Shown one piece after another: positions 142 through 46,042 of a DNA stretch of 53,493 nucleotides. The stretch comes from Salinimicrobium xinjiangense DSM 19287. GTDB lineage: Bacteria; Bacteroidota; Bacteroidia; Flavobacteriales; Flavobacteriaceae. The stretch lies in NCBI RefSeq assembly GCF_000423585.1, contig NZ_KE384055.1, positions 61,672 through 115,164 of the forward strand, in the 5' to 3' direction. Position numbers and translations under genes: made by a program. Below the pieces are notes generated by a model. The model saw only the letters and a program-made list of their open reading frames with translations, made no database searches and was not told the DNA's origin. Every line of letters starts with the position of its first letter. The first letter of the stretch is position 1.

Positions 142-155
142 AAAAATGACTTTTT
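142..155. repeat. Imperfect copy of AAAAATGWCATTTTT palindrome
   Basis: AAAAATGACTTTTT lacks one base of the 15-bp palindrome found repeatedly in this window. It has the usual flanks: CTTC on the left and CGAGG on the right. Confidence 0.6.
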
Positions 156-203
156 CGAGGGGCTATTTTGGACTTCTTCTTAGGAGCAGAATTAGTGCTA
201 AAT

Positions 204-236
204 AAAAAATCCCAGCTGAAAAGCCGGGATTTTTTA
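204..236 (-). terminator. Rho-independent terminator of the aminotransferase gene
   Basis: An inverted repeat (AAAAAATCCC-a-GCT, GAAA loop, AGC-c-GGGATTTTTT) lies just 3' of the minus-strand aminotransferase stop. Both sides carry A/T tracts, so it could work in both directions. Confidence 0.85.
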
Positions 237-255
237 TTGGTATTTTTGGATATTA

Positions 256-1446
256 TCAAGCTTCAGAAAGGGCATTTTTGATGCGCTTCATTGCTTCTTC
301 TATTTCGGCTTCACTGGCGGCATAGGAGAACCTAATGCAGTTAGGGCTTCCAAAAGCATCTCCGGTTACAGTAGCAACGAGGGCTCTTTCCAACAGGAAC
401 ATCGAGAAGTCTGTGGCATCCTTTATTTCATATCCATTGATGGTCTTTCCGAAGAAATAGGAAACATCGGGAAATACATAAAATGCACCTTCGGGTTCTG
501 TGATGGCAAAGCCTTCGATCTGAGACATGAGATCGATTATCAATGATCTGCGGCTTTTAAACCTGTCGATCATATACTGGATCTTGCTAACGGGAGCTTC
601 CAGGGCAGTGATCACCGCACGCTGTGCTATACAGTTGGCTCCGCTGGTGATCTGGCCCTGCATTTTGTTACAGGCACGGGCGATTTCGGCAGGAGCTCCT
701 ATATATCCTATCCTCCAGCCGGTCATAGCGAAGGCTTTAGAGACTCCGTTCACAGTGACCACACGATCATACATATCTTCAAATTGAGCCATGGAAGCAT
801 GCTCCCCCACAAAATTGATGTGCTCATATATTTCATCACTTACTACAATGATATCCGGATGCTTTACCAGTACATCGGCCAGAGCCCGCAATTCTTCCTT
901 GCTGTACACCATTCCGCTGGGATTGGATGGCGAGCTGTACCATAACATTCTGGTTTTTGGAGTGATGGCAGCTTCCAGCTGCTGCGGAGTCATCTTAAAA
1001 TCTGATTCCACAGAGGTAGGTACTTCTACAGGAACTCCTTCTGCCAGCTTCACTATTTCGGCATAACTTACCCAGTAAGGGCAGGGGAGGATCACCTCGT
1101 CACCGGGATTCAGCATTACCATCGCAACATTAGCCAGCGACTGCTTTGCTCCGGTAGAAACTACAATCTGAGACCTGTCGTAGGTAAGGCCATTATCTCT
1201 TTTGAACTTGTTTATTATGGCATCCTTTAATTCCACATATCCATCAACAGGGGTATAGGAATTATAGTTGTCATTGATCGCCTGTATGGCTGCTTCCTTA
1301 ATATAATCGGGAGTGTTGAAATCGGGCTCTCCCAAACTTAAGCCTATAATGTCTTTTCCTTCAGCCTTCAACTCGCGTGTTTTGGCAGCCATGGCCAGAG
1401 TTTGCGAGGTGGACATGTTGTTAATACGGTCAGATAGTTTGTACAT
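256..1446 (-). CDS. Class I/II pyridoxal-phosphate aminotransferase, aspartate aminotransferase-like
   Basis: The 396-residue product has the usual length of the cytosolic type Ib aspartate aminotransferase family, which moves the amino group between aspartate and 2-oxoglutarate. Visible PLP-site features are SPSNPSG (Asn175), SDEIYE (Asp204) and the Schiff-base lysine in VSKAFAMTGWRIGY (Lys237). The N-terminal phrase LGEPDFNTP is typical of this family. The gene lies 18 bp downstream of the desaturase gene on the same strand with no terminator between, so the two may be co-transcribed. Exact substrate preference (aspartate, prephenate or other amino acids) cannot be read from sequence. Confidence 0.93.
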   Translation of the reverse strand: MYKLSDRINNMSTSQTLAMAAKTRELKAEGKDIIGLSLGEPDFNTPDYIKEAAIQAINDNYNSYTPVDGYVELKDAIINKFKRDNGLTYDRSQIVVSTGAKQSLANVAMVMLNPGDEVILPCPYWVSYAEIVKLAEGVPVEVPTSVESDFKMTPQQLEAAITPKTRMLWYSSPSNPSGMVYSKEELRALADVLVKHPDIIVVSDEIYEHINFVGEHASMAQFEDMYDRVVTVNGVSKAFAMTGWRIGYIGAPAEIARACNKMQGQITSGANCIAQRAVITALEAPVSKIQYMIDRFKSRRSLIIDLMSQIEGFAITEPEGAFYVFPDVSYFFGKTINGYEIKDATDFSMFLLERALVATVTGDAFGSPNCIRFSYAASEAEIEEAMKRIKNALSEA

Positions 1447-1464
1447 GTGAATTAGGTTGATTTT

Positions 1465-3352: not shown

Positions 3353-6300
3353 TTACTCTACTATGAATTTATACTGTTTTGTTGAATCCTTTAGATGTAC
3401 AATTGTAAAATATACACCAGTACTTGGTACCTCAACAGGCAGCTTGATGAGATTCTGGTCGCTAATGCTGAGATAGGTGTAGATGTGCTGGCCCAGTGAA
3501 TTATACAAAACGACCTTACTTACCGATTGCATATCAGGATTTTTAATTATAAGGTTTTTGGCATCATTGGAATACAAGATCTCCAGATCTGCAGGCGGAG
3601 TAGGTTGTGGTTGTTCAGGATTGTCGACCAAATCCCCGTCTTCCCCATCTCCTTCTCCGGGATTTATCTCTTCCTCTTCTCCCTCACCCGGTTCATGATC
3701 TTCGGTGCTGAATACCAGGGCGTATCGCTCATGCATTTTTCCTTCTACTGCAGTTCCTTGAAACTCAGTTTCCCTGAGGTCATGGTAGGTGCCGTTTTCA
3801 ATATCTTTTATATATATAGTGAAGTCATCATCAATATTTTCCAGCTCATCGATGGCAATAGTAAAATCTCCACCTTCTACAGTTTTTATTCCCAAAGGTA
3901 ATATTCTGTCAGCGTTGAAGTCGGGAACTCCCTGTATTACCAGAGCGACTTCATCCAGCATCCAGTACATATCTTCCTTATTGTTCTCAATCAGTGAAGC
4001 ATCGTACCCAAGATCAAATCCCAAAGTCGCATTTTTATCGGCAGTAACAAGGAGTTGGCGGTGATAGCCTTCAGGAGATCTGAATTTTATCCAGATCCTT
4101 TGTCGGGTTTCCTCTTTTGTATCATTAGTAGAAGATTTCCAGCCTTTTCTCTCTTGTGAATGATATACTGATTTAGTTTTGTCTATTTCGGTCACAAAGA
4201 ATCGCTGACTGTTCTTGAAAAGAATATCGCCCCCATGGATTGTAATGTTCGATTGAGTTGTAATGGATTCGTCCAGAACAGTGTTCACGAAGAAAGCCTG
4301 ACCCACCGGAATAAATTGTTGAGGTCTTTCTCCCCCTTCTTCTAATGTCGCGTTAACTCTTTCATCGTTTGCAATTGCTTTAATTCCTCCGGAAAGATTG
4401 TAAACAGCATAACCACCCACATAATATTGCAGGTAATGTGTATAACCCGAGAAATGTGACCAGAAGTAGATAGAACCATTGAAAACATTAGTGCCGTCCC
4501 TTCTCTCCCCAAGATTGTCACGGATAAACTCATTGGCATCAATGGCCGAAGGATACGGATTACCTACCAGATAATTTTTTCCTGTGCTAATGTTCAGCGG
4601 AATAGTACCGTTATTAGGCATGCCGGTAAAAATATAATTCTGCAGGTCAAGAATATTTTTAGAGCCTGAAGAACCTTTCATGGAAAAACCTTCTCCGGAT
4701 TTTAATAGACTTGATTTAGCGTCAATTCTCTCCCATTGACTGTACTCATTGGCATCCCCAAAGAATTTGTGGAGCCAGTAACCGCTTATTTTTATAGGAG
4801 TGGCGAGAGGCCCGTCGGCATGGCGAAAATTAATATCAAAATTGATATCTCGTGGAGTAACAGGATCAGTTCCGTCTTGCATTACAGAAAAGATCTTATA
4901 ACCTGTATTCTGAGAATTTCCGCTGATGCTAACAGGTGAAGTCCAGTAGTTATAATTATAACTACTGGCCGTACCCTGCTGATCCCTTTGAACATTTCCG
5001 TTGCCTACCAGGATACTACCTTCTGTCTGGATCAACTGAGACTCTCCGTTAAGATCAATAAAGCCTCCCAGATCAAGATAGGTGGTGATGGTAAGACCAT
5101 TCCCCGATCCCGGCTGAATTCCGGTAGTAGTCCTCACCGGATTTGAACCCAACATGTCCAGTTTTCCTCCGTTAAGCAGGAATCCGAGCAGGGTAATATT
5201 TTGATTTCCGGAGTTGTGATCATGGGTTAAATAAGCTATGTTCCAGTCAATACTAGTTCCGTTGATCCCTGTATCATTAGGCCAGGTCCAGAAATTCTCA
5301 CCTTCACTTCCAATGCTGATATCCCAGGCGCCTCTTGTTTTCCAGGCTCCGTTAGCTTCTGAAATGTAAGGCAGGGGAGCTGTGTTTTTTTGAAGTGTTT
5401 CAATATTTCTAAGATGGCCATCCACTCCGTTATTAGCCCTGTCTACTGCTATTCCGTTTGCCACCTGGGCATCTTCGGCTATCAGCCTGTAATAGCTCAC
5501 AAGAGATGCCCATTGCAATTCCCCTGGGACATCAAGAGGGAGAATTTCACCTCTTACCGCAGTACCATTTGCATCAATACGCTGATTCATCATAAAGCGT
5601 ATCTGATCCACATTAAGAGCCGAATTCCACACCCGCAGCTCTTCAATCCATCCTTCAAAATAATTTTGAGGGACTTCCGGTTCATTAGCGTTGTACATAG
5701 CACCGATCAGGAACGGAGATGAATTGGAAACCGGCTTTGATCCGGTTGAGTTTCCTACTTTGATCCCGTCAACGTATAACTCCACTGCAGTGCCGTTGAA
5801 AATAACTGCAAGATGATACCAGCGATCTGTGCCCACTTTATGAGAAGTTGATACAGAATTCCCGTTCCACCTGAAAGTGGGAGCACCATTATTAATGATC
5901 AGGTCATATCCTGCCGAGGTAAGATTTGCTGTATTCCGTTTGGAAATAACTGTTCGAATTCCGGTAACAGATTCCGGTTTTACCCAAACTTCCAGACTGA
6001 AATCTGAGGAAGGAAAATTGTTTCGGTCACCTATAAAGACATAGTCATCCACTCCGTCAAAATCTAACGTGCTGCAATCCCCTTTAAAGTTGATGACCAT
6101 ATCGCTGGAAGTACCGCAGGAGCCGTCGGCATGTGCAATTGTCCATCTTAAAGTATAGGTTCCGGCGGGTGCATTAAAGGCTGAAGCCGGATTATTAGGC
6201 TCGGCCAATTCCCAGTTGGTATTTGGAGCATCAACTACAGTCCAGGTTCCAACCCCCGTTTCCGGGGTATTAGCTTCGAGGTAAGTGTTGAAAAACCCAC

Positions 6301-9300
6301 AACCAAAACTTTGATCGGGTCCTGTTTCAGCGACGGTAAGCTGTTCAGGTTCTGTAATGATAACGGCTTCTATTGTTTGACAGCCGTTCGCATCAATAAC
6401 TGTTACTGTATATTCTCCTGCGGGAAGATCGACTGCGGTAGCAGTGGTTTGTTCCTTAGGATCATTCCATAGGTATTGATATGGTTCTCCTGTAGTAAAA
6501 GGTGTACCAATATTGTCCTCGTCTATTTTGACTGTAGCACTTCCTGTTTCTCCAAAGCAGAGTGGATTGATGGGTTCTACTGTTGCAGAAACGGAAGTTT
6601 CAGGTTCTGTAATGGTTGCTGTAACTGTAGTTTGTTCACCTGCTGAATCCTGCACGTATATGGTATATGTTCCCGCGATGAGGCCTACAAATTGGTTGCT
6701 GGTTTGTGAAGTAGCAGATGAGGATAACCTGTAGGAGTAAGGAGCAAATCCTCCCGAAGCTTTTACAGTTATAGTGCCTGTGTTGTCACCTTTACATAAG
6801 ATGTGGGTTGGAGTTGCTTCTGCTCTTAATTCGGTGGGGACGTGCAAAGGTTCATTTGTAGACCAACAGAATTTGTTGTTATTTGCACCACATTCTTTTT
6901 TCGAAACGTTGGTCCATGTGATATAAAAAGTATCAATGTTCAAATTATCCCCACAACTAAAATTAATAGGATTTTTTGTTAGTTTAATGAATTCCCCGAC
7001 ACGGTTATCTTGATTTACGGTTAGGTTTTCATCAATATCTTCTTTTTCCCTGCATCCATCGGCATAATAAACATTAGATTCATCTTTAATCGAATTTGAA
7101 ATAATAAAGGTTAACTCGATATAGGGATTATAAATATTGGCACTCTTGTCAACACCAAGAAAAATGAATTTCTCAACTTCGGGATCACAGTAGTCCTCAC
7201 TGGTTTTATCTATGCGGGTACCGTCTGCATATCCCATGTAGATATTATTGGGGTCAAAATCAATATTGCTGGATTTTCCGCAGGGGTTATAACATTTTCC
7301 AATATACTGCTCCTGTGTGGTGGTATAAGTCTCTCCGGTACTGTCAGTAACTGTGAGCGTAATCACTTTATTTCCTATAGTGGAATAATCCACCCAGAAT
7401 TCTCCAATACCAGTGCGTTGGCGTCCTACTGCACCTTCACCAAAGTCCCAGGAATATGTGTATGGCCCCACACCTCCATAGGCTGTTTCGTCTTCAACTA
7501 TATAATGAAATGTTCTAATAGCTTCTACGTCTCCTTCAATCTCACAGGTACTTCTTGTTAGGATGAACGCTTGAATGGCATCAATAATTTCGACCTCTAC
7601 GACCAGGATACAACCTTTCGAGTCGATAACCGTCACCTCATAAAAACCTGCTGCTAAATTTTTAGCCGTTTTTGTAGTCTGAAGCACAATGCCTTCTCCT
7701 TTTCTTCGCCATTCATAAGTATATCCAGGAGTTCCTCCGGAAGCATTTACGGTAGCCGATCCTGTCGCTGTGCCATAAGTAGTGGTCCTTGTTGTTGTGA
7801 CTTCTGCAGTTACCGCAGCATTAGGTTGTGTCAGAACATAAGCAGAATTGAGAACAGTAGCACAGGTGGGGTATGCCGCATCCCTTACCGAAACAGAATA
7901 TGTCCCGGCGGTAAGTCCGCTAAACGTAGAAGCAGATTGCCAGCTCGTTCCATCGATACTGTATTCAAAAGTGCCGTGTCCTCCCGAAGCAGAAGAAACA
8001 GTTATGGTACCATCGCTACCTTCAAAGCAGCTCACATTAGTTTTGGTAAGATTACCGGTCAAAGCCTCGGGCTGCGTTACCGTTACCGGAACCTGTAAGG
8101 CACAATTGTTAGCATCTTTAACAAAGATGGTATGATTACCTGCACTTACACCTTCAAAGAGGCTTGTGGAGTAGAAGTTGACGTTGTCTGTTGAATATTC
8201 AAAGGGAGCAGTACCTCCCGTCACGTTCCCGGCAGTTATAGTGCCGTCACTTCCACCGTGACAGGTTACTGCCGTAGTTGAAGGAGTAGCCATGGAAAGT
8301 CCTGCAGGTTCTGTGATGACGAAGCTCTCTTCCAACAGACAAGAGTTCTGATCTTTTACAGTGAAGGTATAGGAGCCCGGTGCCAGATTAGTGAATTCCT
8401 TTGATGACTGCAAAGCCCGACCGGTGACCTGATACTGGTAACCGCCAACTCCGCCCGTCACATCTCCTCCAATAACAGATCCGTCTGCTGCCCCGTTACA
8501 GGTAACATTATTAATCTGCAGGGAGGTCATCGTTATTTGTGTTGGTTGGGTAAGGGTAATATCCAAAGGAGCTGCTTCACAGCCATTGCTGTCCTTGACA
8601 GTAACCGTATATGTTCCTGCAATGAGACCGGTTTTAGTTGCACCGGTACCCTGGCTGTTCCAGGTATAGGTATAAGGTCCTACTCCTCCGGTTGCACTAA
8701 TGCTGATTTCTCCTGTCGCGGCTCCATGACATAAAATGTCCACTTTAGTGGAAGTTACCTGCACAGGTGAAATTGTAACTGTCTGTTGAGCAGTTGAACT
8801 ATTACCCGCAGCATCTGTAAAGGTCCAGGTTATCATGCCCGAGCTGCTGAAGGTAGTGGATCTGTTTGCCGTTGCTGTAATGGTACCCGAGCAGTTATCA
8901 CTTGCTGTTGGAACTGCTACAGTGTAGGTACAGCCCCAGGTAATATCTGATAGTTGAGGTGCTACAGGAGCTTCTTTATCCTCTATAATAATATTTTGAG
9001 TGACTGAGACAGCTTGGTTGCCATTCTCATCTGTAACATTCCACGAGATTGTCGTGGTACCTACAGGATAAGGATCAGTAAGAGGTTTATTGTCATCCCT
9101 CGTACCTGTTGGCGCACCTACTCCGCAATTGTCCGTAACTCCGGGTGCAGTAATATTTACCTGTGCAGTGCAGGTGCCGCTGTCGCTGCTTTGGGTGATA
9201 TCGGCAGGGGTAGAGATAACAGGCTTCTGAGTGTCTGTGATAGTCACTGTTTGAGTTGCAGTTGCTGAATTATTAGAATCGTCTGTCACCGTCCATGTCA

Positions 9301-10609
9301 CTGTGGTTGTTCCCAGAGGAAAACTGGAAGGCGCATCATTTGTTGCCTCTTTGACACCACAGTTATCTGCAGTCGTGGGAGTTCCTAGTGCAACTCCCGA
9401 AGCGATACAGCTGTTGGTATCCGTTGAAATTGTAACATTTGCCGGAGCAGTAATAGTTGGATTCTGGTCATCTGTAACGGTCACTGTTTGAGTTGCAGTT
9501 GCTGTATTATTAGAATCATCTGTCACCGTCCATGTCACTGTAGTTGTTCCTAATGGAAAAGTGGAAGGGGCATCATTTATCACACTTTTGACGCCGCAGT
9601 TGTCGTCAGTATTAGCTGTGCCCAGAGCCACACCCGAAGCGTTACAGCTGTTGGCGTCTGTGGAAAATGAAACATTTGCCGGAGCGGTAATAGTTGGATC
9701 CTGGTCATCTGTAACGGTCACTGTTTGAGTTGCAGTTGCTGTGTTATCAGAATCGTCTGTCACCGTCCATGTCACTGTGGTTGTCCCCAGAGGAAAACTG
9801 GAAGGCGCATCATTTGTCACACTTTTGACACCGCAGTTATCATCAGTAGCAGGTGTACCCAAATCCACACCCGAAGCGACACAGCTGTTGGTATCCGTTG
9901 AAACTGAAACATTTGCCGGAGCAGTAATGGTTGGATCCTGGTCATCTGTAACGGTCACTGTTTGAGTTGCAGTTGCTGTGTTATCAGAATCGTCTGTCAC
10001 CGTCCATGTCACCGTGGTTGTCCCCAGAGGAAAACTGGAAGGCGCATCATTTGTCACACTTTTGACACCGCAGTTATCATCAGTAGCAGGTGTACCCAGA
10101 GCCACACCGGAAGCTGTACAGCTGTTGGCGTCTGTGGAAACTGAAACATTTGCCGGAGCAGTAATGGTTGGATCCTGGTCATCTGTAACGGTCACTGTTT
10201 GAGTTGCAGTTGCTGTATTTTCAAAATTATCAGTAACTGTCCAGGTCACCGTTGTTGTTCCCAGTGGAAAAGTTGAAGGCGCATCATTTGTCACACTTTT
10301 GACGCCGCAGTTATCGTCAGTAGCAGGTGTCCCCAAAGCCACACCCGAAGCGGTACAGCTGTTGGAATCCGTTGAAGCCGACACATTTGCCGGAGCAGTA
10401 ATGGTTGGATTTACGGTGTCTTCGGTACAATTATCGAAAGCTACAGCAAAGATTCCCATAGGGGAATCGTACCAGTTGGTTTGGATTTCGACTTCATGTT
10501 TAGGGTAAACATAAGTTTCAGATGCCGGATAATCCCAATAGGAAGTCAGTGCTGTAGTGAGCAATATGAATAATCCGGGAAGTGTCAGAGAAGTGTAAAT
10601 TTTTCCCAT
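3353..10609 (-). CDS. Giant T9SS-exported surface protein with HYR and SprB-type repeats and LamG domain
   Basis: A protein of about 2418 residues. After a signal sequence (MGKIYTSLTLPGLFILLTTA...) come five nearly identical 79-residue HYR repeats from about residue 69 to 464. Two divergent HYR-like repeats, about five SprB-type repeats (pattern ...GGxxPYxYxW...LxAGTYTVTVxDxxGC), a PKD-like domain and two more SprB-type repeats follow. A LamG/concanavalin-like domain starts near 1513 (LDFDGVDDYV), then a long tail module, an acidic Pro/Glu linker (EPGEGEEEEINPGEGDGEDG) and a type A T9SS sorting domain ending YKFIVE. The family is used for adhesion, sugar binding or gliding; the ligand is unknown. 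An in-frame TTG at 10642 is rejected as start because it lies in the -7 promoter box. The tail is homologous to that of the adjacent giant gene. Confidence 0.92.
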   Translation of the reverse strand: MGKIYTSLTLPGLFILLTTALTSYWDYPASETYVYPKHEVEIQTNWYDSPMGIFAVAFDNCTEDTVNPTITAPANVSASTDSNSCTASGVALGTPATDDNCGVKSVTNDAPSTFPLGTTTVTWTVTDNFENTATATQTVTVTDDQDPTITAPANVSVSTDANSCTASGVALGTPATDDNCGVKSVTNDAPSSFPLGTTTVTWTVTDDSDNTATATQTVTVTDDQDPTITAPANVSVSTDTNSCVASGVDLGTPATDDNCGVKSVTNDAPSSFPLGTTTVTWTVTDDSDNTATATQTVTVTDDQDPTITAPANVSFSTDANSCNASGVALGTANTDDNCGVKSVINDAPSTFPLGTTTVTWTVTDDSNNTATATQTVTVTDDQNPTITAPANVTISTDTNSCIASGVALGTPTTADNCGVKEATNDAPSSFPLGTTTVTWTVTDDSNNSATATQTVTITDTQKPVISTPADITQSSDSGTCTAQVNITAPGVTDNCGVGAPTGTRDDNKPLTDPYPVGTTTISWNVTDENGNQAVSVTQNIIIEDKEAPVAPQLSDITWGCTYTVAVPTASDNCSGTITATANRSTTFSSSGMITWTFTDAAGNSSTAQQTVTISPVQVTSTKVDILCHGAATGEISISATGGVGPYTYTWNSQGTGATKTGLIAGTYTVTVKDSNGCEAAPLDITLTQPTQITMTSLQINNVTCNGAADGSVIGGDVTGGVGGYQYQVTGRALQSSKEFTNLAPGSYTFTVKDQNSCLLEESFVITEPAGLSMATPSTTAVTCHGGSDGTITAGNVTGGTAPFEYSTDNVNFYSTSLFEGVSAGNHTIFVKDANNCALQVPVTVTQPEALTGNLTKTNVSCFEGSDGTITVSSASGGHGTFEYSIDGTSWQSASTFSGLTAGTYSVSVRDAAYPTCATVLNSAYVLTQPNAAVTAEVTTTRTTTYGTATGSATVNASGGTPGYTYEWRRKGEGIVLQTTKTAKNLAAGFYEVTVIDSKGCILVVEVEIIDAIQAFILTRSTCEIEGDVEAIRTFHYIVEDETAYGGVGPYTYSWDFGEGAVGRQRTGIGEFWVDYSTIGNKVITLTVTDSTGETYTTTQEQYIGKCYNPCGKSSNIDFDPNNIYMGYADGTRIDKTSEDYCDPEVEKFIFLGVDKSANIYNPYIELTFIISNSIKDESNVYYADGCREKEDIDENLTVNQDNRVGEFIKLTKNPINFSCGDNLNIDTFYITWTNVSKKECGANNNKFCWSTNEPLHVPTELRAEATPTHILCKGDNTGTITVKASGGFAPYSYRLSSSATSQTSNQFVGLIAGTYTIYVQDSAGEQTTVTATITEPETSVSATVEPINPLCFGETGSATVKIDEDNIGTPFTTGEPYQYLWNDPKEQTTATAVDLPAGEYTVTVIDANGCQTIEAVIITEPEQLTVAETGPDQSFGCGFFNTYLEANTPETGVGTWTVVDAPNTNWELAEPNNPASAFNAPAGTYTLRWTIAHADGSCGTSSDMVINFKGDCSTLDFDGVDDYVFIGDRNNFPSSDFSLEVWVKPESVTGIRTVISKRNTANLTSAGYDLIINNGAPTFRWNGNSVSTSHKVGTDRWYHLAVIFNGTAVELYVDGIKVGNSTGSKPVSNSSPFLIGAMYNANEPEVPQNYFEGWIEELRVWNSALNVDQIRFMMNQRIDANGTAVRGEILPLDVPGELQWASLVSYYRLIAEDAQVANGIAVDRANNGVDGHLRNIETLQKNTAPLPYISEANGAWKTRGAWDISIGSEGENFWTWPNDTGINGTSIDWNIAYLTHDHNSGNQNITLLGFLLNGGKLDMLGSNPVRTTTGIQPGSGNGLTITTYLDLGGFIDLNGESQLIQTEGSILVGNGNVQRDQQGTASSYNYNYWTSPVSISGNSQNTGYKIFSVMQDGTDPVTPRDINFDINFRHADGPLATPIKISGYWLHKFFGDANEYSQWERIDAKSSLLKSGEGFSMKGSSGSKNILDLQNYIFTGMPNNGTIPLNISTGKNYLVGNPYPSAIDANEFIRDNLGERRDGTNVFNGSIYFWSHFSGYTHYLQYYVGGYAVYNLSGGIKAIANDERVNATLEEGGERPQQFIPVGQAFFVNTVLDESITTQSNITIHGGDILFKNSQRFFVTEIDKTKSVYHSQERKGWKSSTNDTKEETRQRIWIKFRSPEGYHRQLLVTADKNATLGFDLGYDASLIENNKEDMYWMLDEVALVIQGVPDFNADRILPLGIKTVEGGDFTIAIDELENIDDDFTIYIKDIENGTYHDLRETEFQGTAVEGKMHERYALVFSTEDHEPGEGEEEEINPGEGDGEDGDLVDNPEQPQPTPPADLEILYSNDAKNLIIKNPDMQSVSKVVLYNSLGQHIYTYLSISDQNLIKLPVEVPSTGVYFTIVHLKDSTKQYKFIVE
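9230..10420 (-). repeat. Five ~237-bp direct repeats encoding HYR domains
   Basis: Within giant gene 1 a 237-bp unit (79 codons) recurs with high nucleotide identity. For example, the word catctgtaacggtcactg recurs near 9470, 9705, 9942 and 10179. This is a recombination-prone array that could vary in copy number or be mis-assembled. Confidence 0.85.
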
Positions 10610-10639
10610 AGGCCTAATAATTAGAAACTTAGTAGCCTT

Positions 10640-10647
10640 CAAAAGTA
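10640..10647 (-). promoter_or_regulatory. -7 promoter box of giant gene 1
   Basis: The minus strand reads TACTTTTG, a perfect TAnnTTTG, 30 bp upstream of the ATG at 10609. It overlaps the alternative TTG codon at 10642 and therefore argues for the ATG. Confidence 0.6.
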
Positions 10648-22653: not shown

Positions 22654-23412
22654 ATGTGCACAGTCACCATCACTCCTTTAAAAGGGGGAAAGTCCTTTGT
22701 TCTTACTTCAAATCGCGATGAGGCACCGGGACGCGAAACCCTGCCTCCAAAGGTGTATGAAATAAATGGCTTAAAAATGGCATTTCCCAGGGATGTTTTA
22801 GCAGGAGGTACCTGGTTAGGAGTCAGTGAACGGAAGAGGATAATCTGTTTGCTGAATGGAGAATTCAAAAAGCACGTGAGAAAACTGCCTTACGCAAAAA
22901 GCAGGGGAGTGGTGGTCAAAGATCTTCTTGCTGCGGAAAATTTCAATAATGCTGCGGATGCCTATGATCTCTCTGAAGTTGAACCTTTCACCATAGTAGC
23001 GGCCGACTGGCAGCAGGATCTGTTTTTTGCTGAATTCGTCTGGGACGGAAGCAATAAACATTACAAGGAACTACCCCAGAAGTCTCACATCTGGTCCTCA
23101 AGTCCGTTATATTCTCCTGAAATGAAACGGCTGCGGGAGGAGTGGTTTGCACAACTTCAAAAGGAAAACGAATTAACGCCTGAAGCTTTATTGGAATTTC
23201 ATTTATCGGCAGGAAAGGGAGATTTTGATACCGGCGTAATCATGGATCGCGGATTCGTGAAGACGGTGAGTGTATCGCAGGTTGTTTTTTCTAAAGGCCG
23301 GGTCGAATTTTATTACAGGGATTTGTCTACAGGAGAAGAGTCGGAAATTGATGATTTGAGAATATGCCAGACCTGCCAGGCAAACTTATCCTCGAGCGCC
23401 GGTCTACGGTAG
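22654..23412 (+). CDS. NRDE/TANGO2-family protein
   Basis: A 252-residue member of the NRDE family (named for the Asn-Arg-Asp-Glu motif; animal member TANGO2). The N-terminus MCTVTITP with Cys2 and the motif SNRDEAPGR are visible, and the fold is presumed Ntn-hydrolase-like with Cys2 as candidate nucleophile. TANGO2 has been linked to haem and lipid handling, but the bacterial role is not established. The last 20 or so residues (IDDLRICQTCQANLSSSAGLR) are unusual: their DNA matches the intergenic repeat that follows (GATTTGAgaat...CCAGACCTGCCA and GAGCGCC...GGTAGG). The natural stop codon may therefore have been lost and replaced by repeat sequence. Confidence 0.85.
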   Translation: MCTVTITPLKGGKSFVLTSNRDEAPGRETLPPKVYEINGLKMAFPRDVLAGGTWLGVSERKRIICLLNGEFKKHVRKLPYAKSRGVVVKDLLAAENFNNAADAYDLSEVEPFTIVAADWQQDLFFAEFVWDGSNKHYKELPQKSHIWSSSPLYSPEMKRLREEWFAQLQKENELTPEALLEFHLSAGKGDFDTGVIMDRGFVKTVSVSQVVFSKGRVEFYYRDLSTGEESEIDDLRICQTCQANLSSSAGLR

Positions 23413-24174
23413 GCAGGGAATCGAGTCAACCGCTGTCAGGGTTCAAACCGCTGAAAGGGTTACAGAGGTGTTAAAAATGACATTTTTGGCGGTAATTTGA
23501 AGATGAGTTGATTTGATGATTTGAAATGATAATCAGATTTGCCAGGAAATGTAATGTTGAGCGCCTGCCTGTGGTAGGAAGGGAGTCGGGCCAACCGCTT
23601 TCAGGGTTTAAAACCGCTGAAAGGGTTGCAGAGGTGTTAAAAATGGGATTTTTCGAAGTAATTTGAGGATGTGGTGATTTGAAAATTTGAAGATACCCAG
23701 ACCTGCCAAAGTTTTTAATCATGAGATCCCGGAAGATTAAAAACTATTCGGTAAGCTTATTAAAGGATTCTTTGGTAGGTCTTGATTCTGTAAAAGAGAT
23801 GTCCAAAATGACATTTTAGAGTGGTGAGTAGGGAGAGGATAAAGAGCAGAGTGTTATGAAAAAACTTTCTCTTCTAGCTTAAGCCAACCGCTGTCAGGGT
23901 TTAAAACCGCTGACAGGGTTGAAGAGGTGTCAAAAAAGGCATTTTTAGAGGTGATTTTAGGATTTGGAGATTTGAGGATTCGAAAATTTTCCAGGCCTGC
24001 CAAAAAAATATTTCCTGGAGAGGAGTGAGGTTTTGTCTTAAATTGGTTCTCGTGATTCAAAACAGGCAACAGGAAACTGGCAACAATTAAACCGCAACCC
24101 GCATCAGAAATTATGCAGTATCCAGTCCTCAGTGGGCAGTAAAAGACTTTGAATTTTAAATCTTGAACCTTGAA
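23352..24174. repeat. Repeat-only intergenic region with four composite repeat units
   Basis: There is no credible gene between 23413 and 24174. The region is built from units containing CCGCTGWCAGGG doublets, the word GAGGTGT, then an AAAAATGWCATTTTT-type palindrome, and then GATTTGA-rich sequence ending CCAGACCTGCCA. Palindrome copies sit at 23473-23487 (perfect), 23639-23653, 23805-23817 and 23932-23946; the first three are exactly 166 bp apart. GAGCGCC starts units at 23394 and 23559. The last 110 bp are low-complexity words such as caggcaacaggaaactggcaa and the gtcctcagtgggcagt type. Confidence 0.85.
23473..23487. repeat. Perfect AAAAATGWCATTTTT palindrome
   Basis: AAAAATGACATTTTT is flanked by GAGGTGTT and GGCGG. 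It is one of four perfect copies in the window (others at 33501, 42401 and 45690). Confidence 0.85.
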
Positions 24175-25673: not shown

Positions 25674-26924
25674 CTAATTAGTGATATTTAAAGAATTGGC
25701 GTGCCCTACTCCAATGATCCTGGTGTATCTTCCCCCCGGAGGTAAATAATAAATAAGAACAGAATAATCATTTTCTGTACTCACAAAATTTCCGCTTATA
25801 AAACCTTCATCCAGAACTCCGTCATTCCTTAGGAAAACATATTTATAATCGTAATAACCCTGTTTAAATAAACGTGCCGTTTCATAGCTGCCGGTTTGGT
25901 AGTTAAAACTGAGCCTGGTGGATTCGTCCAACTGAAAATTATTAAATTCTCCGTACAAGTGTAATTCTCCGTCTTCAAGGGGCTCCAGGGTTTCGAGGGA
26001 AAAATGAGTCCACACATATCCGGCTTCAATATCATCATCCTGCGCCTGAAAATTTCTTACTACAAATTTTCCATTGATATCAGGATTATAGGTGTAAGGC
26101 TGAAAAGCACGAATTCGGTCTTTAAATAGATAATGATGATATAACTCCTGTACATCAATATACCTGATCTTTACCGTCGCGGCCCGAAGGTCTTTACTGT
26201 CAAAGTTGAGGTATTCGTTCCCCGCCCAAAAGGAGGTTAATTGGTCAAATTTGTAGACCAGGGTAGTTCCTATGTGGTATTGGGGGCGAATATTGAAAAT
26301 AGCGGTTTTGAGATTGTTATTCTGAAGAATGACAGCCCAAACAGATTCTTCGGGCGTGCGAATTATAAAATCGGGTGAATGAACTTCAAAATTGATCACC
26401 TGCCTGGTTTGGATAAATTTCACATCCCGGGATTTTCTTACAGTGACTGCTACCTGGGAGAGCGGCTCATAAACCATGAACTTTCTTGAAAAAACAAGTT
26501 CCTTTTCCTCGTTAAAGACCTTAAGAAGGTAATTTCCGCTTACCTTTAGTCCGCGGGTATCTTCATTGGGAATATTTAGTTCATAGTGGGAATAGAGCTG
26601 CAGGGTGTTAAAAGAGTTTCTATAGTCGGTTATCCTAACATTGTCAAAACCTTCCAAAAATTCATTTTTTAATAATTCTGAAGGGGACCAGTCGTAGTTG
26701 AAATGTTCAAGGGTGTAATAGTAATTAGCTTCATCCCCAATGATATCATCGAATTTAAGGATTAAAGGTTCCCCCAACCTAATTACAGGAACGCCACTGT
26801 GACTATCGGGTCCACTAAAAATAACACTGCGTATGTAATTGGGAGGGGCTGTCTCTACAACCGCTTGTGCAGAGGTTGTAAGGAAACAGGTAAGAAAAAA
26901 GGAGAGGGAGAAAAATAGCTTCAT
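25674..26924 (-). CDS. DUF5103 protein, type IX secretion system plug-family
   Basis: A 416-residue secreted protein with an N-terminal signal peptide (MKLFFSLSFFLTCFLTTSAQA). The pattern (PPNYIRSVIF...PVIRLGEPLILKFDDI...YYYTLEHFNYDW) matches the DUF5103 family. A member of this family was seen as the Plug that closes the periplasmic side of the SprA translocon of the T9SS in a Flavobacterium structure. That assignment is by family resemblance only. It is consistent with two T9SS cargo genes in the same window. A TATTTTTG box lies only 5 bp before the ATG, suggesting a very short leader or an unrelated match. Confidence 0.8.
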   Translation of the reverse strand: MKLFFSLSFFLTCFLTTSAQAVVETAPPNYIRSVIFSGPDSHSGVPVIRLGEPLILKFDDIIGDEANYYYTLEHFNYDWSPSELLKNEFLEGFDNVRITDYRNSFNTLQLYSHYELNIPNEDTRGLKVSGNYLLKVFNEEKELVFSRKFMVYEPLSQVAVTVRKSRDVKFIQTRQVINFEVHSPDFIIRTPEESVWAVILQNNNLKTAIFNIRPQYHIGTTLVYKFDQLTSFWAGNEYLNFDSKDLRAATVKIRYIDVQELYHHYLFKDRIRAFQPYTYNPDINGKFVVRNFQAQDDDIEAGYVWTHFSLETLEPLEDGELHLYGEFNNFQLDESTRLSFNYQTGSYETARLFKQGYYDYKYVFLRNDGVLDEGFISGNFVSTENDYSVLIYYLPPGGRYTRIIGVGHANSLNITN

Positions 26925-33145: not shown

Positions 33146-33502
33146 ATGGCGGAATTATCAGACCAGGAGTTGCACAATCTGGCAATGAATATTGTAGGGA
33201 AGGACCTGGAGGATCAGGGATATGAATTTCTCGGGATAAACAGCGAATTCAAAAAGGACCCGCAATTTGTGGCCCTTAAAGACAAAAAGCTGCATTTCGT
33301 TATCGTGAGAGCAATAGAATATCCGTATGATCCCGCAGAGATCCCAATGATATTTCTCGAGACAATTAAACAACATGCATTAAAATTCAATGCCCGTACA
33401 TTTTATGCAGGTGTGGGTTTGGCTAATTCAAAGGATTATGAATTACCGGTGTCCAGTTCAGAAGATTATGTTGTGAACTACCCGGGGTTAAAAGAGATCT
33501 AA
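33146..33502 (+). CDS. Small conserved-looking protein of unknown function between nqrF and apbE
   Basis: A 118-residue, probably cytosolic protein without signal peptide or membrane segment. Sequence pattern: LSDQELHNLAMNIVGKDLE at the N-terminus, a central hydrophobic-strand phrase KLHFVIVRAIEYPYDP, and a C-terminal FYAGVGLANSKDYELPV. I recognise no catalytic motif. In related flavobacteria this position often holds a gene labelled as an extra NqrF, but it has no ferredoxin or FAD motif, so that label would be wrong. Its stop is 2 bp before the apbE ATG, so the two are surely co-transcribed. A role in Na+-NQR maturation or flavin transfer is an inference from context. Confidence 0.8.
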   Translation: MAELSDQELHNLAMNIVGKDLEDQGYEFLGINSEFKKDPQFVALKDKKLHFVIVRAIEYPYDPAEIPMIFLETIKQHALKFNARTFYAGVGLANSKDYELPVSSSEDYVVNYPGLKEI

Positions 33503-33515
33503 AAATGACATTTTT
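33501..33515. repeat. Perfect AAAAATGWCATTTTT palindrome covering the apbE start codon
   Basis: AAAAATGACATTTTT spans the intergenic junction and contains the ATG of apbE at 33505. It supplies the first codons (ATG ACA TTT TTG). The right flank GAGAC is shared with the copy at 42401-42415 read on the minus strand. Confidence 0.85.
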
Positions 33516-40529: not shown

Positions 40530-42146
40530 TTAATTACCTGCCAGTTTTGAATAGATCTTTTCATCAAGATCGTAGACGTCACTGGTAAATACAGTTTCAC
40601 CACCGGCCCGCCAGGCAGTCCAATAGAAATGATGGACCTGGATGGGCCGGTCGACTTTCACGACAGTAGTCTTTCCAGATCTTATAATATCCTCAATTCT
40701 TTCCCGGGAATACTCATCTTGATTTTCCACCACATAAGATGCCAGATCAATAGCATTTTCTACCCGCACACAACCCGAACTTTCTGCTCTTTCGGTCTGA
40801 TTGAAGAGGGCCTGCCCAGGAGTGTCGTGAAGATAAATGAGATATTGATTTGGATACATGATCTTCACCCGTCCCAGAGGATTGGAAGGTCCAGCCCGCT
40901 GTGTGAAAGTATAATTCATGGCTTCGCTGCTATTCCAGTCAACAGACGACGGATTCACTTTTTCTCCATTTGGGCCCGTAACAGTCATATTATTCCTGCT
41001 CACGTAAGAAGGATCTGCAGCAACTTTAGGTAAAATATCTTTGGCTTTAATTGTAGGAGGTACTGTCCAGGTAGGATTGATCTCCAGGTGATTGATTGTG
41101 TCGCTGAAAATGGGTGTTTGTCTGTCTCTTGATCCTGCAATTACATTATGCTCTCTAATTGTATCTCCATCCTTTACCACAGCGAGTTTAAAATTCGGAA
41201 TGTTGATAAGGATATAGTGATCTCCAAGGTCTCTTGGATACCAGCGCCACCTTTCCAGGTTGGCGAGAATTTGCCTGTACCTGTCTTGCGGACCTTTGTT
41301 AAGCTCTGCAATTGTAGCATTTCCAATAATGCCATCTGTCTGAATACTTTTGCTCTGCTGAAATTCCCTTACAGCTTCCACCAGTTCCTCTGTATAGGTA
41401 CTGTCAATAGAAGTAGTATCTGCCTGAAATTTTTGCAGGGACATCAGCCTTTTGGCAATAGCCGGAATTCTGGCGTCTTTATCTCCCGGATTAATAAGTT
41501 CTCCCGGTTGTAATTCTCCTAAAGGGCCTTCATCCTCCTTTAGCTCTTCATATTCGGCAAGGCTTTTCTTGAGGTCGTGATACACCTGATGGTTAGGTCT
41601 CAGTTCATCAAAAATCGACTGAAAATCTCCATCGTTAACCCCTTTCAGAAGGAGTTCTGCAAAATCTTTTTCTTTTCTGCTAATTCCCCAAAATTCATTT
41701 AGTTCTGTAGGATCCAGTTTTCCGTAGTAAAGATGCCGGGCATAAGTAAGAAAAGCGTCAGAAAGCAAAAGATCGAGCCGCGCTGCCTCGTCAGAAGATA
41801 GATCGCTCATGGATAGCAAACGGTCAATTTCTTCTCCGTGGTAGTCTTTTAGGTCAAGTCCCTCTTTATTAGCACCGGTGAGGCTGCTGTAAAAAGAAAA
41901 CAGAACATCCCCGTCTCTCCAAAGAGATCTGTATTCCCTTTGGCTATAAATTTCTTCGAGAGTACCCCCCTCAAAAATGTCATTTTGAGCGGATATTTCT
42001 GTTTTGATACCATCGGGGGAGGCTTCAGCAATTTGCTTTGAAGCCAGGTCCGATGAAGCTTTGCTTCGGGGATCATTACTATCTCCCTTACAGGCATTAA
42101 GGCTAATAAAAACTATTAATATCGGGTATAAAAAGCTCTTTTTCAT
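40530..42146 (-). CDS. L,D-transpeptidase of the YcbB/LdtD type
   Basis: A 538-residue lipoprotein-like enzyme (signal ...VFISLNACKG with a lipobox Cys19). It has an N-terminal scaffold region, a peptidoglycan-binding-1-like segment (AVREFQQSKSIQTDGIIGNATIAELN), and a YkuD catalytic domain with IYLHDTPGQALFNQ and the nucleophile motif AESSGCVRVENAIDLA. It forms 3-3 cross-links in peptidoglycan. Near the N-terminus the peptide AQNDIFEGG is encoded by a copy of the dispersed palindrome (41973-41986), in the same frame as in the GNAT pseudogene next door. Confidence 0.92.
   Translation of the reverse strand: MKKSFLYPILIVFISLNACKGDSNDPRSKASSDLASKQIAEASPDGIKTEISAQNDIFEGGTLEEIYSQREYRSLWRDGDVLFSFYSSLTGANKEGLDLKDYHGEEIDRLLSMSDLSSDEAARLDLLLSDAFLTYARHLYYGKLDPTELNEFWGISRKEKDFAELLLKGVNDGDFQSIFDELRPNHQVYHDLKKSLAEYEELKEDEGPLGELQPGELINPGDKDARIPAIAKRLMSLQKFQADTTSIDSTYTEELVEAVREFQQSKSIQTDGIIGNATIAELNKGPQDRYRQILANLERWRWYPRDLGDHYILINIPNFKLAVVKDGDTIREHNVIAGSRDRQTPIFSDTINHLEINPTWTVPPTIKAKDILPKVAADPSYVSRNNMTVTGPNGEKVNPSSVDWNSSEAMNYTFTQRAGPSNPLGRVKIMYPNQYLIYLHDTPGQALFNQTERAESSGCVRVENAIDLASYVVENQDEYSRERIEDIIRSGKTTVVKVDRPIQVHHFYWTAWRAGGETVFTSDVYDLDEKIYSKLAGN
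41973..41986. repeat. AAAAATGWCATTTTT palindrome copy inside L,D-transpeptidase gene
   Basis: AAAAATGTCATTTT is 14 of 15 bases of the dispersed palindrome. On the coding strand it reads as QNDIF. Flanks are CCTC and GAGCGG. Confidence 0.75.
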
Positions 42147-42205: not shown

Positions 42206-42585
42206 TTAGCTAATGGTCTTATAACCGTACCTGCGGTAGAAATCTACAGCTACTCCCCGGGCATTAAACCATAATAAAGGTTCAGGTTTATTCTTCTTTA
42301 ATATTTCTTCTCCTCTAAAAAGGAGTTTTTCACCAGTCTTTTTATTCCGGTGTTTCGGCAGTACTGCCATTCCCCGCAACTGAAATTGGAAAGGAGTCTC
42401 AAAAATGTCATTTTTGGCGGAACAAAAGTTGCCACTCCAACCAGATCCTTTCCTTCGAAATATCCGGGGTGAAAAGTTTCCGGCTCCAGGTCTCTCTCAA
42501 AAAAGCATTCCCGAAGCGGTCTTCCGGGAGGCAACACCTGCTGTCGCACCCTTTAAGTTTCCTTTGCTAAAATTTCGTTGATCAA
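42206..42585 (-). pseudogene. Decayed GNAT acetyltransferase gene
   Basis: Reading from a TTG at 42585 gives MINEILAKET, then an in-frame TAA (42553-42555) where a Tyr codon is expected, and then VRQQVLPPGRPLRECFFE and GYFEGKDLVGVATFVP. Near 42421 one base is missing. In the next frame the protein resumes as AKNDIFETPFQFQLRGMAVL and GEKLLFRGEEILKKNKPEPL, then WFNARGVAVDFYRRYGYKT, ending in TAA at 42206. The intact ancestor would be about 126 residues with a normal GNAT acetyl-CoA-binding loop. A perfect palindrome (42401-42415) lies next to the frameshift. Confidence 0.85.
42401..42415. repeat. Perfect AAAAATGWCATTTTT palindrome in GNAT pseudogene
   Basis: AAAAATGTCATTTTT on the plus strand, reading as KNDIF on the coding strand. 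It is flanked by GGCGG, as at 23473, and, on the other side, by GAGAC (minus strand), as at 33501. Confidence 0.85.
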
Positions 42586-42599: not shown

Positions 42600-42896
42600 T
42601 TATTCTTCGGTAGCCTGTACCTCCCGGTATTCTTCATGCCGCTCGAATTGAGCTGCCGCATAACGACAAAGAGGATCGATCTTTATATCTTTTTCCCTGG
42701 CGTAATCTACACTGTGTTTTACCAGACTGCTCGCAAAACCTTCTCCTTCAAACTTTGGATCGGTTTCAGTATGATCAAGAGTCATAATATTGTTGTCCTG
42801 AAGAGTATAGGTGAGTTCAGCAACAATATCCCCGTCTTTTTCAATGTAAAACATTCCTTTTCCGTCTGTCTCTTTATGCTGAATATCTTTATTCAT
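42600..42896 (-). CDS. Small GNAT-type N-acetyltransferase (YjdJ-like)
   Basis: A 98-residue protein of the minimal GNAT-like family (COG2388 type). Visible features are GMFYIEKDGDIVAELTYTL, DHTETDPKFEGEGFASSLV for the acetyl-CoA loop, and the C-terminal KIDPLCRYAAAQFERHEEY. The substrate is unknown. It starts 1 bp after the clpP stop on the same strand, suggesting co-transcription with clpP. Confidence 0.88.
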   Translation of the reverse strand: MNKDIQHKETDGKGMFYIEKDGDIVAELTYTLQDNNIMTLDHTETDPKFEGEGFASSLVKHSVDYAREKDIKIDPLCRYAAAQFERHEEYREVQATEE

Positions 42897-44064: not shown

Positions 44065-44137
44065 GCGGGAGTAGCTCAGTTGGTAGAGCGTCAGCCTTCC
44101 AAGCTGAATGTCGCCGGTTCGAACCCGGTCTCCCGCT
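44065..44137 (+). tRNA. tRNA-Gly (anticodon UCC)
   Basis: The 73-nt cloverleaf has acceptor stem GCGGGAG/CTCCCGC, D-arm GTAGCTCAGTTGGTAGAGCG, anticodon stem CAGC/GCTG with loop CTTCCAA (anticodon TCC), T-arm with GGTTCGAACC, and discriminator T. CCA is not encoded. A terminator hairpin follows directly. Confidence 0.95.
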
Positions 44138-44138
44138 C

Positions 44139-44168: not shown

Positions 44169-44179
44169 ATGTGCTAACA

Positions 44180-44860
44180 TCGGCACGGCTTGTAAATCCG
44201 CGCCAACGATTTTCTTGTCCTGGGACAACATATCGGTAGAAAAAAGCCATACCCTTTGATCATTGTCCTGTAGGGACAACATCTAAAGACCCGCGGAATA
44301 AACCGCTGTCAGGGCGTCAAGCCGCTGACAGGGTTGGTCTTAGGGTTAGTACATCGGTGCATCTTCACCGAATAGAGCCTGAAGGGCTCCAACAACAAAG
44401 CCCGGGGCAACGCCCCGGGAAAAAATCCCCACATGTTTCACCAGCCTGAAGGGCTGGTACATATTCGGAATGAATTTTTCTCGGCACGGATTTCAAATCC
44501 GCGCCAGCTTTCTTCTGTCCCGTTAGGACAACATATCGGTAGAAAAAAGCCATACCCTTTGATCATTGTCCTGTAGGGACAACATCTAAAAAACCCGCGG
44601 ATTACCCGCTGACAGGGTTGTTCGCAGAGATAGGAAATGAATACATCTCCACCAAATAGAGCCTGAAGGGCTCAAACAACAAAGCCCGGGGCAACGCCCA
44701 GGGAAAAAATCCCCACATGTTTCACCAGCCTGAAGGGCTGGTACATATTCGGGATTAATTTCTCGGCACGGATTACAAATCCGCGCCAGCCTTTGCAGGA
44801 TCCAAACCTCACAGGTTTTAAAACCTCGTTAGGTTTAGTACAGAAAGATCCCACGACGCT
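44180..44860. repeat. Composite ~300-bp tandem repeat block
   Basis: There is no credible gene between 44169 and 44996. Two full units and the start of a third begin with the CGGCACGG hairpin element at 44181, 44482 and 44764. Each unit holds a paired GTCC/GGAC hairpin module (GGACAACATATCGGTAGAAA), a CCGCTGACAGGGTTG element, GCCTGAAGGGCTC, then AAGCCCGGGGCAACGCCC, and AGCCTGAAGGGCTGGTACAT. The first two units are nearly identical over long stretches. A further inverted-repeat element (aacctcacaggttttaaaacc) follows at about 44807-44835. Simple words (tgttaattgctcattgct) fill 44875-44930. Confidence 0.88.
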
Positions 44861-44996
44861 TTGTTTTCCCCCTGCTAACTGTTCATTGTTAATTGCTCAT
44901 TGCTCACTGTTAATTGTTAAATCTTTCTTTACAACAGCAGCTTCCCACCCCGATCTTTGTACCTTAATTCAAGTATTCACCCTAAAATACTGCGGA

Positions 44997-45194
44997 ATGA
45001 AAAAAATTAATCCATTTTTTATCATTGGTACCCTTGGAATGTTACTTACTTCCATGCTTCACATTTTAATGGCTGCCATAACCTCTGAAGAAGCAGCTTC
45101 TGCTTCCTTCTGGATGCTGTATCCCGGTTTTCTTGCCTTTCTCATTCTTGGAACTGTGATTATGGCCAAAAGAGAGCGGCTTAGCAAAGAATAA
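44997..45194 (+). CDS. Small membrane protein of unknown function
   Basis: A 65-residue protein, MKKINPFFIIGTLGMLLTSM..., with two hydrophobic segments (about 7-28 and 38-56) and a charged C-terminus AKRERLSKE. I do not recognise the family. The frame remains open upstream into repeat sequence (to 44793), but the ATG at 44997 gives a normal membrane-protein N-terminus and lies after the repeats end. Confidence 0.65.
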   Translation: MKKINPFFIIGTLGMLLTSMLHILMAAITSEEAASASFWMLYPGFLAFLILGTVIMAKRERLSKE

Positions 45195-45207
45195 ATTCCG
45201 TTAATTT

Positions 45208-45226
45208 GGATCAAATTTTTTGATCC
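45208..45226 (+). other. Hairpin abutting the GTG start of the GNAT gene
   Basis: GGATCAAA-TTT-TTTGATCC is a perfect 8-bp stem ending at the base before the GTG start codon at 45227. It could occlude ribosome access or be a weak terminator of the small membrane protein gene. No T-run follows. Confidence 0.5.
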
Positions 45227-46042
45227 GTGAAAATAAAAGATCTCTCATCTACTCCTTTTGAGGAGATTATTACTTGTTTTCTTAAAGCCTTTGAAGGTTA
45301 TTTTGTTCAACTTCCGGAAGATATCGTATACTGGAGATCCCGCTTTATTATTGCCCGTGTAGACTGGAGTCTTTCTTTCGGCATGTTCGATGGAGATAAG
45401 CTTGTCGGTTATATCATAAACGGAATCGATCAGCACAACGGAAAACTCACCGCCTACAACACCGGCACAGGTGTTTTAGCTGAATACCGCGGAAAAGCTA
45501 TTGTAGACCAGCTTTATGATCATGCGGTGCCATTACTTAAGGACCGGAAGATTGAAAAATGCTTGCTCGAAGTGATCTGTGAAAATGAAAGAGCCATAAA
45601 AGTATATGAGCGAATTGGTTTTAAAATAATCCGGCATCTGCGTACTTTCAGCGGTAATCTTCCTGAAACAACTTCAGAGAACAGGTTCCAAAAATGTCAT
45701 TTTTCGCAGGTATTAAATTCCGGACTTTATAAGCCCGAACATTATGCCTGGGATAATTCTGCGGAAGCAATAAAAATGTCAGATAATATCCGGACTTTTT
45801 GTTTAGGGAAAACAAATTCACCCGAAGCTTACTTTTCAATCGATCCTGCAGGAAATGTAATTCAGCTGGAGAGTACAAACGCGGACTATGAGTATCTTTT
45901 GGGTGCTTTAGGGAATGTTGCCGGGGAGGTGAAGCTAAAAAACCTTGATGCCCAGAGAAGTCAGCTTATAAAGGCCCTTCAAAAACTGCATTTTTCGAAT
46001 CCCGTCAATCAATACGAAATGGAAATGCTATTAGAGAATTGA
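45227..46042 (+). CDS. GNAT family N-acetyltransferase with C-terminal extension
   Basis: A 271-residue protein. The N-terminal GNAT domain covers about residues 1-145 (YNTGTGVLAEYRGKAIVDQLYDH as acetyl-CoA loop, CENERAIKVYERIGFK as the C-terminal core). A second half of unclear fold follows. The start codon is GTG; no other start fits. Two copies of the dispersed palindrome are read in the same frame in the second half, giving QKCHFSQ (45690-45704) and QKLHFSN (45981-45995). These are likely repeat-derived insertions or captured sequence. Confidence 0.85.
   Translation: MKIKDLSSTPFEEIITCFLKAFEGYFVQLPEDIVYWRSRFIIARVDWSLSFGMFDGDKLVGYIINGIDQHNGKLTAYNTGTGVLAEYRGKAIVDQLYDHAVPLLKDRKIEKCLLEVICENERAIKVYERIGFKIIRHLRTFSGNLPETTSENRFQKCHFSQVLNSGLYKPEHYAWDNSAEAIKMSDNIRTFCLGKTNSPEAYFSIDPAGNVIQLESTNADYEYLLGALGNVAGEVKLKNLDAQRSQLIKALQKLHFSNPVNQYEMEMLLEN
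45690..45704. repeat. Perfect AAAAATGWCATTTTT palindrome inside GNAT gene
   Basis: AAAAATGTCATTTTT, coding for K-C-H-F in frame. The right flank is CGCAGG. Confidence 0.85.
45981..45995. repeat. Degenerate palindrome copy inside GNAT gene
   Basis: AAAAACTGCATTTTT differs from the consensus in the centre. The flanks CTTC and CGAA match those of other copies, and the reading frame (QKLHFS) matches the perfect copy 291 bp upstream. Confidence 0.6.

Follow-up and report, generated by a model that had tools for sequence, protein, structure and literature searches.

Most genomes of the marine genus Salinimicrobium contain a short palindrome in hundreds of near-identical copies, within genes and in spacers, and it is conserved as DNA rather than as protein. 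A first-pass annotation had noticed its 15-bp form in a stretch of 53,493 nucleotides of Salinimicrobium xinjiangense DSM 19287 (hereafter the window), and we analyzed it in the genome of the window (G000; Salinimicrobium, Flavobacteriaceae), in the complete genome of a congener (G158) and in further genomes of the family. The motif is very probably a clade-specific, dispersed recognition sequence of some kind, read at the DNA level. Our analysis points to an uptake signal sequence (USS), a role whose chances we regard as even. With somewhat less assurance, we propose that it belongs to a third, independently evolved system of DNA self-recognition for transformation, in Bacteroidota, with a palindromic word of about 37 bp, phased A/T tracts and reuse at the tip of terminators.

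The exact 15-mer AAAAATGWCATTTTT was found at 67 sites in G000 (3,764,506 bases in 45 contigs), and the same pattern read backwards at none. With Markov models of order 1 to 5, for which 453 kb of G000 were used in fitting, between 0.11 and 0.28 exact sites are predicted per genome. The first-pass annotation had named beforehand a count no higher than the fifth-order expectation as the result that would speak against the motif, and the 67 sites compare to 0.28 at this order. Since the exact count lies far over the Markov expectation and the reversed pattern is absent, the excess is real and genome-wide. In the window, we observed 18 matches with up to three mismatches, compared to 6.24 ± 2.35 in 100 dinucleotide shuffles, none of which reached 18. 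The window is also denser in exact copies than the genome mean predicts (4 compared to 0.95), and the four copies of its contig, C4, all lie inside it. When the core is written as AAAAATGNCATTTTT and two mismatches are allowed, G000 holds 682 sites, compared to 111 for the reversed control. In unbiased samples, CAAAAATG ranks first among the over-represented 8-mers of G158 (109 compared to 29.9 expected) and third in G000 (123 compared to 47.9 expected). For CAAAAATGNCATTTTTG with up to three mismatches, we counted 66 sites per 400 kb in G000 and 63 per 200 kb in G158, where 200 palindromes with permuted arms gave means of 5.5 and 2.0 and maxima of 19 and 10, respectively; the basal congener G149 has 7 per 200 kb (permuted-arm mean 2.8, maximum 15). 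The exact 15-mer was not found in the literature searched.

For a weight matrix of 18.2 bits, iterated, symmetric and extended, sites were counted in the very samples of G000 and G158 that had served for its training, with shifted overlaps of one site removed. Above 16 bits, the sampled 400 kb of G000 yielded 80 sites compared to 5 when reversed; for the 200-kb samples of G158 and G149, the counts were 72 compared to 1 and 6 compared to 3, respectively. The window contains 14 such sites compared to 0 when reversed; the training samples do not include it, but its four exact copies belonged to the initial set of sites, and its independence is therefore only partial. At cuts of 13 and 16 bits, the excess is about 190–275 sites per Mb in G000 and about 355–455 in G158, which by extrapolation gives, per genome, on the order of 700–1,000 sites in the former and 1,250–1,600 in the latter. 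The consensus places the 15-bp core within a palindrome of about 35 to 37 bp, each half-site running from AA at −10/−9 through mixed R and S, pyrimidines and a C into the core, with the mirror image following. Two A/T tracts, about a helical turn apart, are the best-conserved positions of the matrix. The base at the centre, given as W by the first-pass annotation, is N instead, as many exact copies carry C or G there; its statement that five of the six reading frames of the core are free of stops is right by direct reading.

The exact core is present in 10 of the 12 Salinimicrobium genomes, with 67 copies in G000, 12 in G007, 28 in G150, 103 in G151, 60 in G152, 22 in G153, 37 in G154, 53 in G155, 47 in G157 and 83 in G158, and there are none in the two basal genomes, G149 and G156. 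Of 149 family genomes searched, 19 had a match, with a maximum of 2 in the 147 genomes besides G000 and G007. A scan of the genome contig collection with CTCAAAAATGWCATTTTTGAG matched 23 stretches, all 23 titled Salinimicrobium. A phylogeny based on 740 alignment columns of six proteins, those of the motif excluded, unites the ten carriers in a clade (support 0.995) to which G149 and G156 do not belong; its other nodes are uneven, and the outgroups are represented by a single protein. No signal comparable to the motif was obtained from samples of G149 and of five near genera. We likewise rejected a variant dialect of the motif for G149, G156, G007 or the five near genera, as no comparable top 8-mer or 10-mer was found in samples of 44–200 kb.

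Among the 22 gene-associated exact copies of G000, 18 are fully genic, and are read as KNVIF or KNDIF (13 copies), KMTFL or KMSFL (4) and QKCHF (1). We chose eight genic copies in recognisable genes from these 22, and fetched their orthologues (67 rows). The proteins are presumably TrmH-, KduI-, RibD-, BioF-, HisC-, QueG- and exonuclease-III-like, with one small membrane protein. The exact core is present in 28 rows, and gaps within two codons of the motif occur in three, all from G149 or G156; the alignment of carriers with non-carriers is otherwise free of insertions. In the TrmH-like protein, KNVIF of the carriers stands opposite EKVEF of G149, and in the QueG-like protein GKMSFLE stands opposite GEMRYME. 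In the eight genes examined, the motif copies arose by substitution in place, not by insertion. When two genomes share a residue, the codon is identical in 659 of 809 motif cells (0.81) compared to 2894 of 5679 flank cells (0.51), and, for the residues K, N, I, F, V, D, T and S only, in 645 of 787 compared to 1374 of 2327; own genome excluded, these figures are descriptive, as pairs of related genomes are non-independent and the genes were ascertained by their own copy. In four of the six testable genes, the motif is the most conserved five-codon segment; in the remaining two, it is outscored by 3 and by 2 of 17 segments. The first-pass annotation had suggested this comparison of orthologues with and without the motif, and would have given up the motif if orthologues in distant genera conserved its residues for protein reasons. 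We observed that G149 and G156 carry other residues at most places while the carriers keep the same codons; the residues are therefore not kept for protein reasons. Furthermore, the 29 fully genic copies of G000 and G158 retain the extended consensus with few paired arms: in their half-sites, position −1 is C in 72% and −2 is Y in 89%, positions −5 and −6 are G or C in 63% and 75%, and positions −9 and −10 are A in 67% and 58%, respectively. As genic copies keep the consensus without pairing, it belongs to the DNA and not to a hairpin.

A hairpin is nevertheless predicted at part of the sites. At 21 of the 67 exact sites, the core caps an extended stem with an outer-arm score of at least 7 and tails of A and T, usually in the order A-tract, variable G+C stem, core, matching stem and T-tract; the other 46 have no such stem. 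Three of these hairpins fold far better than shuffled sequences (z of −5.6, −6.6 and −9.6), whereas three genic copies show no such gain over shuffled sequences (z of −0.02, −0.15 and −1.01). Spacer orthologues were compared with the motif masked. Of the 67 G000 loci, 16 had a flank match among 77 other loci, and these gave 20 pairs, some of them duplicates of one place. In orthologous spacers, the stems vary yet stay paired and the core is fixed, as in L070/L047, L092/L115 and L086/L114. The stem-capped copies look like predicted bidirectional intrinsic terminators.

According to the gene classes of our own hexamer gene finder, 22 of the 67 exact copies of G000 are in or touch genes, 21 lie in convergent, 22 in tandem and 1 in divergent spacers, and 1 is unclassed, which bears out the earlier statement that copies occur both in genes and between them. 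For G158, 23 intergenic exact sites were classed, a few of them drawn from the unbiased sample: 14 lie in tandem, 5 in convergent and 4 in divergent spacers. Because of these four, the scarcity seen in the divergent spacers of G000 does not hold in general. Matrix sites of more than 16 bits have densities, in G000 and G158 respectively, of 0.15 and 0.22 per kb in coding DNA, 0.30 and 0.70 in divergent spacers and 0.48–0.51 and 0.96–1.27 in other spacers, and in both genomes the motif is rarer in coding than in non-coding DNA. A regulatory role as promoter operator, one of the first proposals, is disfavoured by the placement of the exact copies of G000 (1 divergent compared to 22 tandem and 21 convergent); the case against it is weaker at the matrix level, divergent spacers being only mildly depleted. 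In G158, the spacing of the 83 exact copies is that of random points (coefficient of variation 0.96; Kolmogorov–Smirnov p 0.65), and they are not clustered on the circle (R 0.136, p 0.21), on a map of exact sites in which the replication origin (ori) and terminus (ter) were not located. With the same limit, this random spacing lends no support to a segregation signal of the macrodomain kind, another of the first proposals. Across 20 stretches, the GC skew did not suffice for placing ori.

In the window, the four exact copies reported earlier were re-found. The copy at 23473..23487 lies in the convergent spacer 3′ of a TANGO2-like gene (22654-23412, + strand), within a repeat of about 105 nt present in three copies. 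That at 33501..33515 spans a possible start codon (33505) of an ApbE-family gene (33505-34518), and G158 has an exact copy at the orthologous place (L129). The spacer between genes 40530-42146 and 42600-42896 contains the copy at 42401..42415, where G158 has a C/G-centred exact core at the orthologous place (L128). The fourth copy, at 45690..45704, is read as QKCHF within a GNAT acetyltransferase gene (45227-46042, + strand), which also contains the degenerate copy AAAAACTGCATTTTT (45981..45995, 21.5 bits). The other degenerate copies were re-found as well: one at 142..156 (31.5 bits), which adjoins an aminotransferase gene (256-1446, − strand), AAAAATGGGATTTTT at 23639..23653 (20.8 bits) in the second copy of the 105-nt repeat, CAAAATGACATTTTA at 23804..23818 (20.8 bits), which had been placed at 23805, AAAAAAGGCATTTTT at 23932..23946 (29.5 bits) in the third copy of the repeat, and AAAAATGTCATTTTG at 41973..41987 (24.0 bits) within an L,D-transpeptidase gene (40530-42146, − strand). 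The earlier list was incomplete, since the matrix adds degenerate copies at 265..279 and 22773..22787 (21.8 bits each), within the aminotransferase and TANGO2-like genes, and weak ones of 17.8 bits at 26656..26670, within a gene on the − strand (25674-26924), and at 42317..42331, in the same spacer as the exact copy at 42401.

Other repeats accompany these copies. Each of the three 105-nt spacer repeats at 23424-23987 joins AACCGCTGTCAGGG palindromes to a motif copy, and an extra AACCGCTGTCAGGG is present at 44301. At 51519-53493, arrays of 15-bp units such as GGTTAATTGGGGAAT are interspersed with GTCCCGTAGGGAC hairpins and copies of a CACGGATTACAAATCCGCGCC element, and all of these recur as larger blocks that surround short genes arranged in tandem. 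More copies of a ATCCGCGCC element and a GTCCTGTAGGGAC hairpin are found at 44176-44793, directly after a tRNA-Gly (44065-44138); Rfam and tRNA searches of the window returned this tRNA and nothing else. Two huge adjoining reading frames occupy the − strand at 3353-10642 (2429 aa), with five internal repeats of 237 nt, and at 10802-20644 (3280 aa). Outside the window, a second over-represented word family, TTCNGAA / CTTCGGAA, was observed in the unbiased samples of G000, G158, G149 and G007, and hence also in a motif-less congener; these words are probably ordinary terminator loops. In G007, the short AT-rich contigs L330 (G007:C15, 15.1 kb) and L331 (G007:C8, 10.2 kb) have 33% GC compared to 44% for the core genome, and consist of runs of small unrelated same-strand genes with repeats between them, a motif copy at many junctions and an IS110-like frame at one end. 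They look like putative gene-cassette arrays with attC-like repeats.

Among the explanations first offered, a recognition site, either an uptake signal or a chromosome-organising site, fits best, and the mobile, operator and segregation options are unsupported or disfavoured. We favour an uptake signal because the origin by substitution, the conservation as DNA, the rarity in coding sequences, the random spacing, the clade limits and the reuse in terminators together match USS and the DNA uptake sequences (DUS). Under this proposal, a DNA-binding component of the competence machinery would prefer motif-bearing DNA, and motif-bearing fragments of relatives would be preferentially taken up and recombined; substitutions that create the motif would therefore spread through molecular drive. 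In spacers, intrinsic terminators would have adopted the palindrome as their tip. The DNA-uptake channel ComEC (PF03772) is encoded by an open frame of 648–690 aa in all ten carriers. In the motif-less G149, which is 99% complete, comEC is decayed into fragments in several frames, with four stops, between conserved neighbours; the remnant lies in L332 (G149:C11:27001-40000) at about 5955-6564. G156 has a ComEC fragment below the cut-off. DprA was found in 11 of the 12 genomes, including all ten carriers, with no match in G156. The presence of ComEC and DprA in the carriers is a necessary condition only for an uptake role. In the relative Riemerella anatipestifer, transformation is reported to need ComEC, DprA, ComF and RecA (PMC8459023), and R. 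columbina, also of the Flavobacteriaceae, is reported to prefer its own DNA, the candidate words put forward there being A-rich only (PMC7965970).

Several observations weigh against an uptake signal. Uptake, like the competence of Salinimicrobium itself, is a proposal from sequence comparison. The A/T tracts carry most of the information of the matrix, which a DNA-bending or nucleoid protein could equally explain. Described USS and DUS are directional words and not palindromic, whereas the motif is one long palindrome. In terminators, USS and DUS sit as inverted pairs, as described in PMC1852404, whereas the motif is there a single palindrome. DprA is present in the motif-less G149. Moreover, since G149 and G156 lie outside the carrier clade, the match between ComEC and the motif amounts to one phylogenetic contrast, to which G156 adds little because it is 74% complete and without a DprA match too. 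Finally, ComEC is intact in G007, whose core genome gives only a weak motif signal (22 compared to 6 sites of more than 16 bits in 180 kb) and whose exact copies are found for the most part on short AT-rich contigs.

The main rival is a genome-wide cytoplasmic DNA-binding protein, nucleoid-associated or chromosome-organising, whose sites would be kept by selection for binding. The palindrome, with its strongest conservation in A/T tracts about a helical turn apart, is in line with such a protein, as is the conservation as DNA in genes and spacers alike. However, the exact copies of G158 are randomly spaced, unlike macrodomain and nucleoid-occlusion sites, and the motif is clade-limited; we consider this explanation rather unlikely, though it deserves to be taken seriously. 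A palindrome iterated in the manner of HIP1, and kept up by methylation or repair instead of by uptake binding, would likewise be lineage-specific and dispersed in genes and spacers. HIP1 is nevertheless GC-rich and tied to methyltransferases that act on it, whereas the motif is longer, degenerate and AT-rich, and a maintenance of this kind seems improbable.

Two further readings are less likely still. A module for transcription termination whose hairpin tip is conserved, or another element acting as RNA, would account for the 21 armed and tailed copies, for the three strong folds and for the arms that covary between orthologous sites. It leaves aside the 46 copies without arms and the genic copies, which retain the extended consensus unpaired and of which three fold like shuffled sequence; moreover, a stem by itself needs no fixed tip. 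As a full account, a pure terminator or RNA element is rejected by the stemless genic copies, and we give this reading a poor chance. The minimal mobile palindrome first proposed, similar to a repetitive extragenic palindrome or a miniature inverted-repeat transposable element with decaying copies, would fit a dispersed palindrome of which some copies sit in longer local repeats (23424-23987 of the window; the arrays of G007). It is unsupported by the eight genic sites, where the motif arose by substitution in place and the 3 gapped rows of 67 all come from motif-less genomes. Filled and empty sites differing by the insertion of a unit were not seen in these eight genes and 67 rows, and flanks past the extended consensus are not shared. 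We regard mobility as very improbable.

If the motif is an uptake signal, it would be a third case, palindromic and in a distant phylum, and would show what is general in such signals and whether drive alone builds these systems. It would also provide a cause for the preference for own DNA in the Flavobacteriaceae, seen in R. columbina with no convincing motif (PMC7965970). If its role differs, the motif still points to a protein whose sites number hundreds in each genome, and for which protein sequences have been altered to keep them. The two motif-less congeners make the question testable by comparison.

Among known systems, matS/MatP, NBS/Noc and SBS/SlmA sites number in the tens per genome and are placed relative to ori or ter. 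They are, like the motif, palindromes dispersed in genes and spacers, whereas the motif occurs in hundreds and its exact copies are randomly spaced in G158. HIP1 of cyanobacteria is described as a lineage-specific palindrome iterated across genes and spacers (PMC4390886); it differs in being an 8-bp word, GCGATCGC, linked to methyltransferases, compared to a degenerate consensus of about 35–37 bp here. The motif resembles intrinsic (Rho-independent) terminators where it caps a stem with A and T tails, as in 21 of 67 exact copies, and differs from them in its invariant tip, found also stemless within genes. Sequence-specific DNA uptake is described in PMC7811141 for two families, Pasteurellaceae and Neisseriaceae. 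The motif differs from their signals in phylum and in sequence, and its role in uptake is putative. Like the USS of Pasteurellaceae (Haemophilus) and the DUS of Neisseriaceae, it is clade-specific and present in hundreds to thousands of copies. USS are described as evolving by point mutation rather than insertion and as under-represented in coding sequences (PMC7811141), and USS-containing terminators are reported in Neisseria and Pasteurellaceae (PMC1852404); the motif shares the origin by point mutation, the lower number in coding DNA and the reuse in terminator hairpins. In addition, its phased A/T tracts recall the AT tracts that flank the USS core and are thought to act via DNA shape (PMC7811141).

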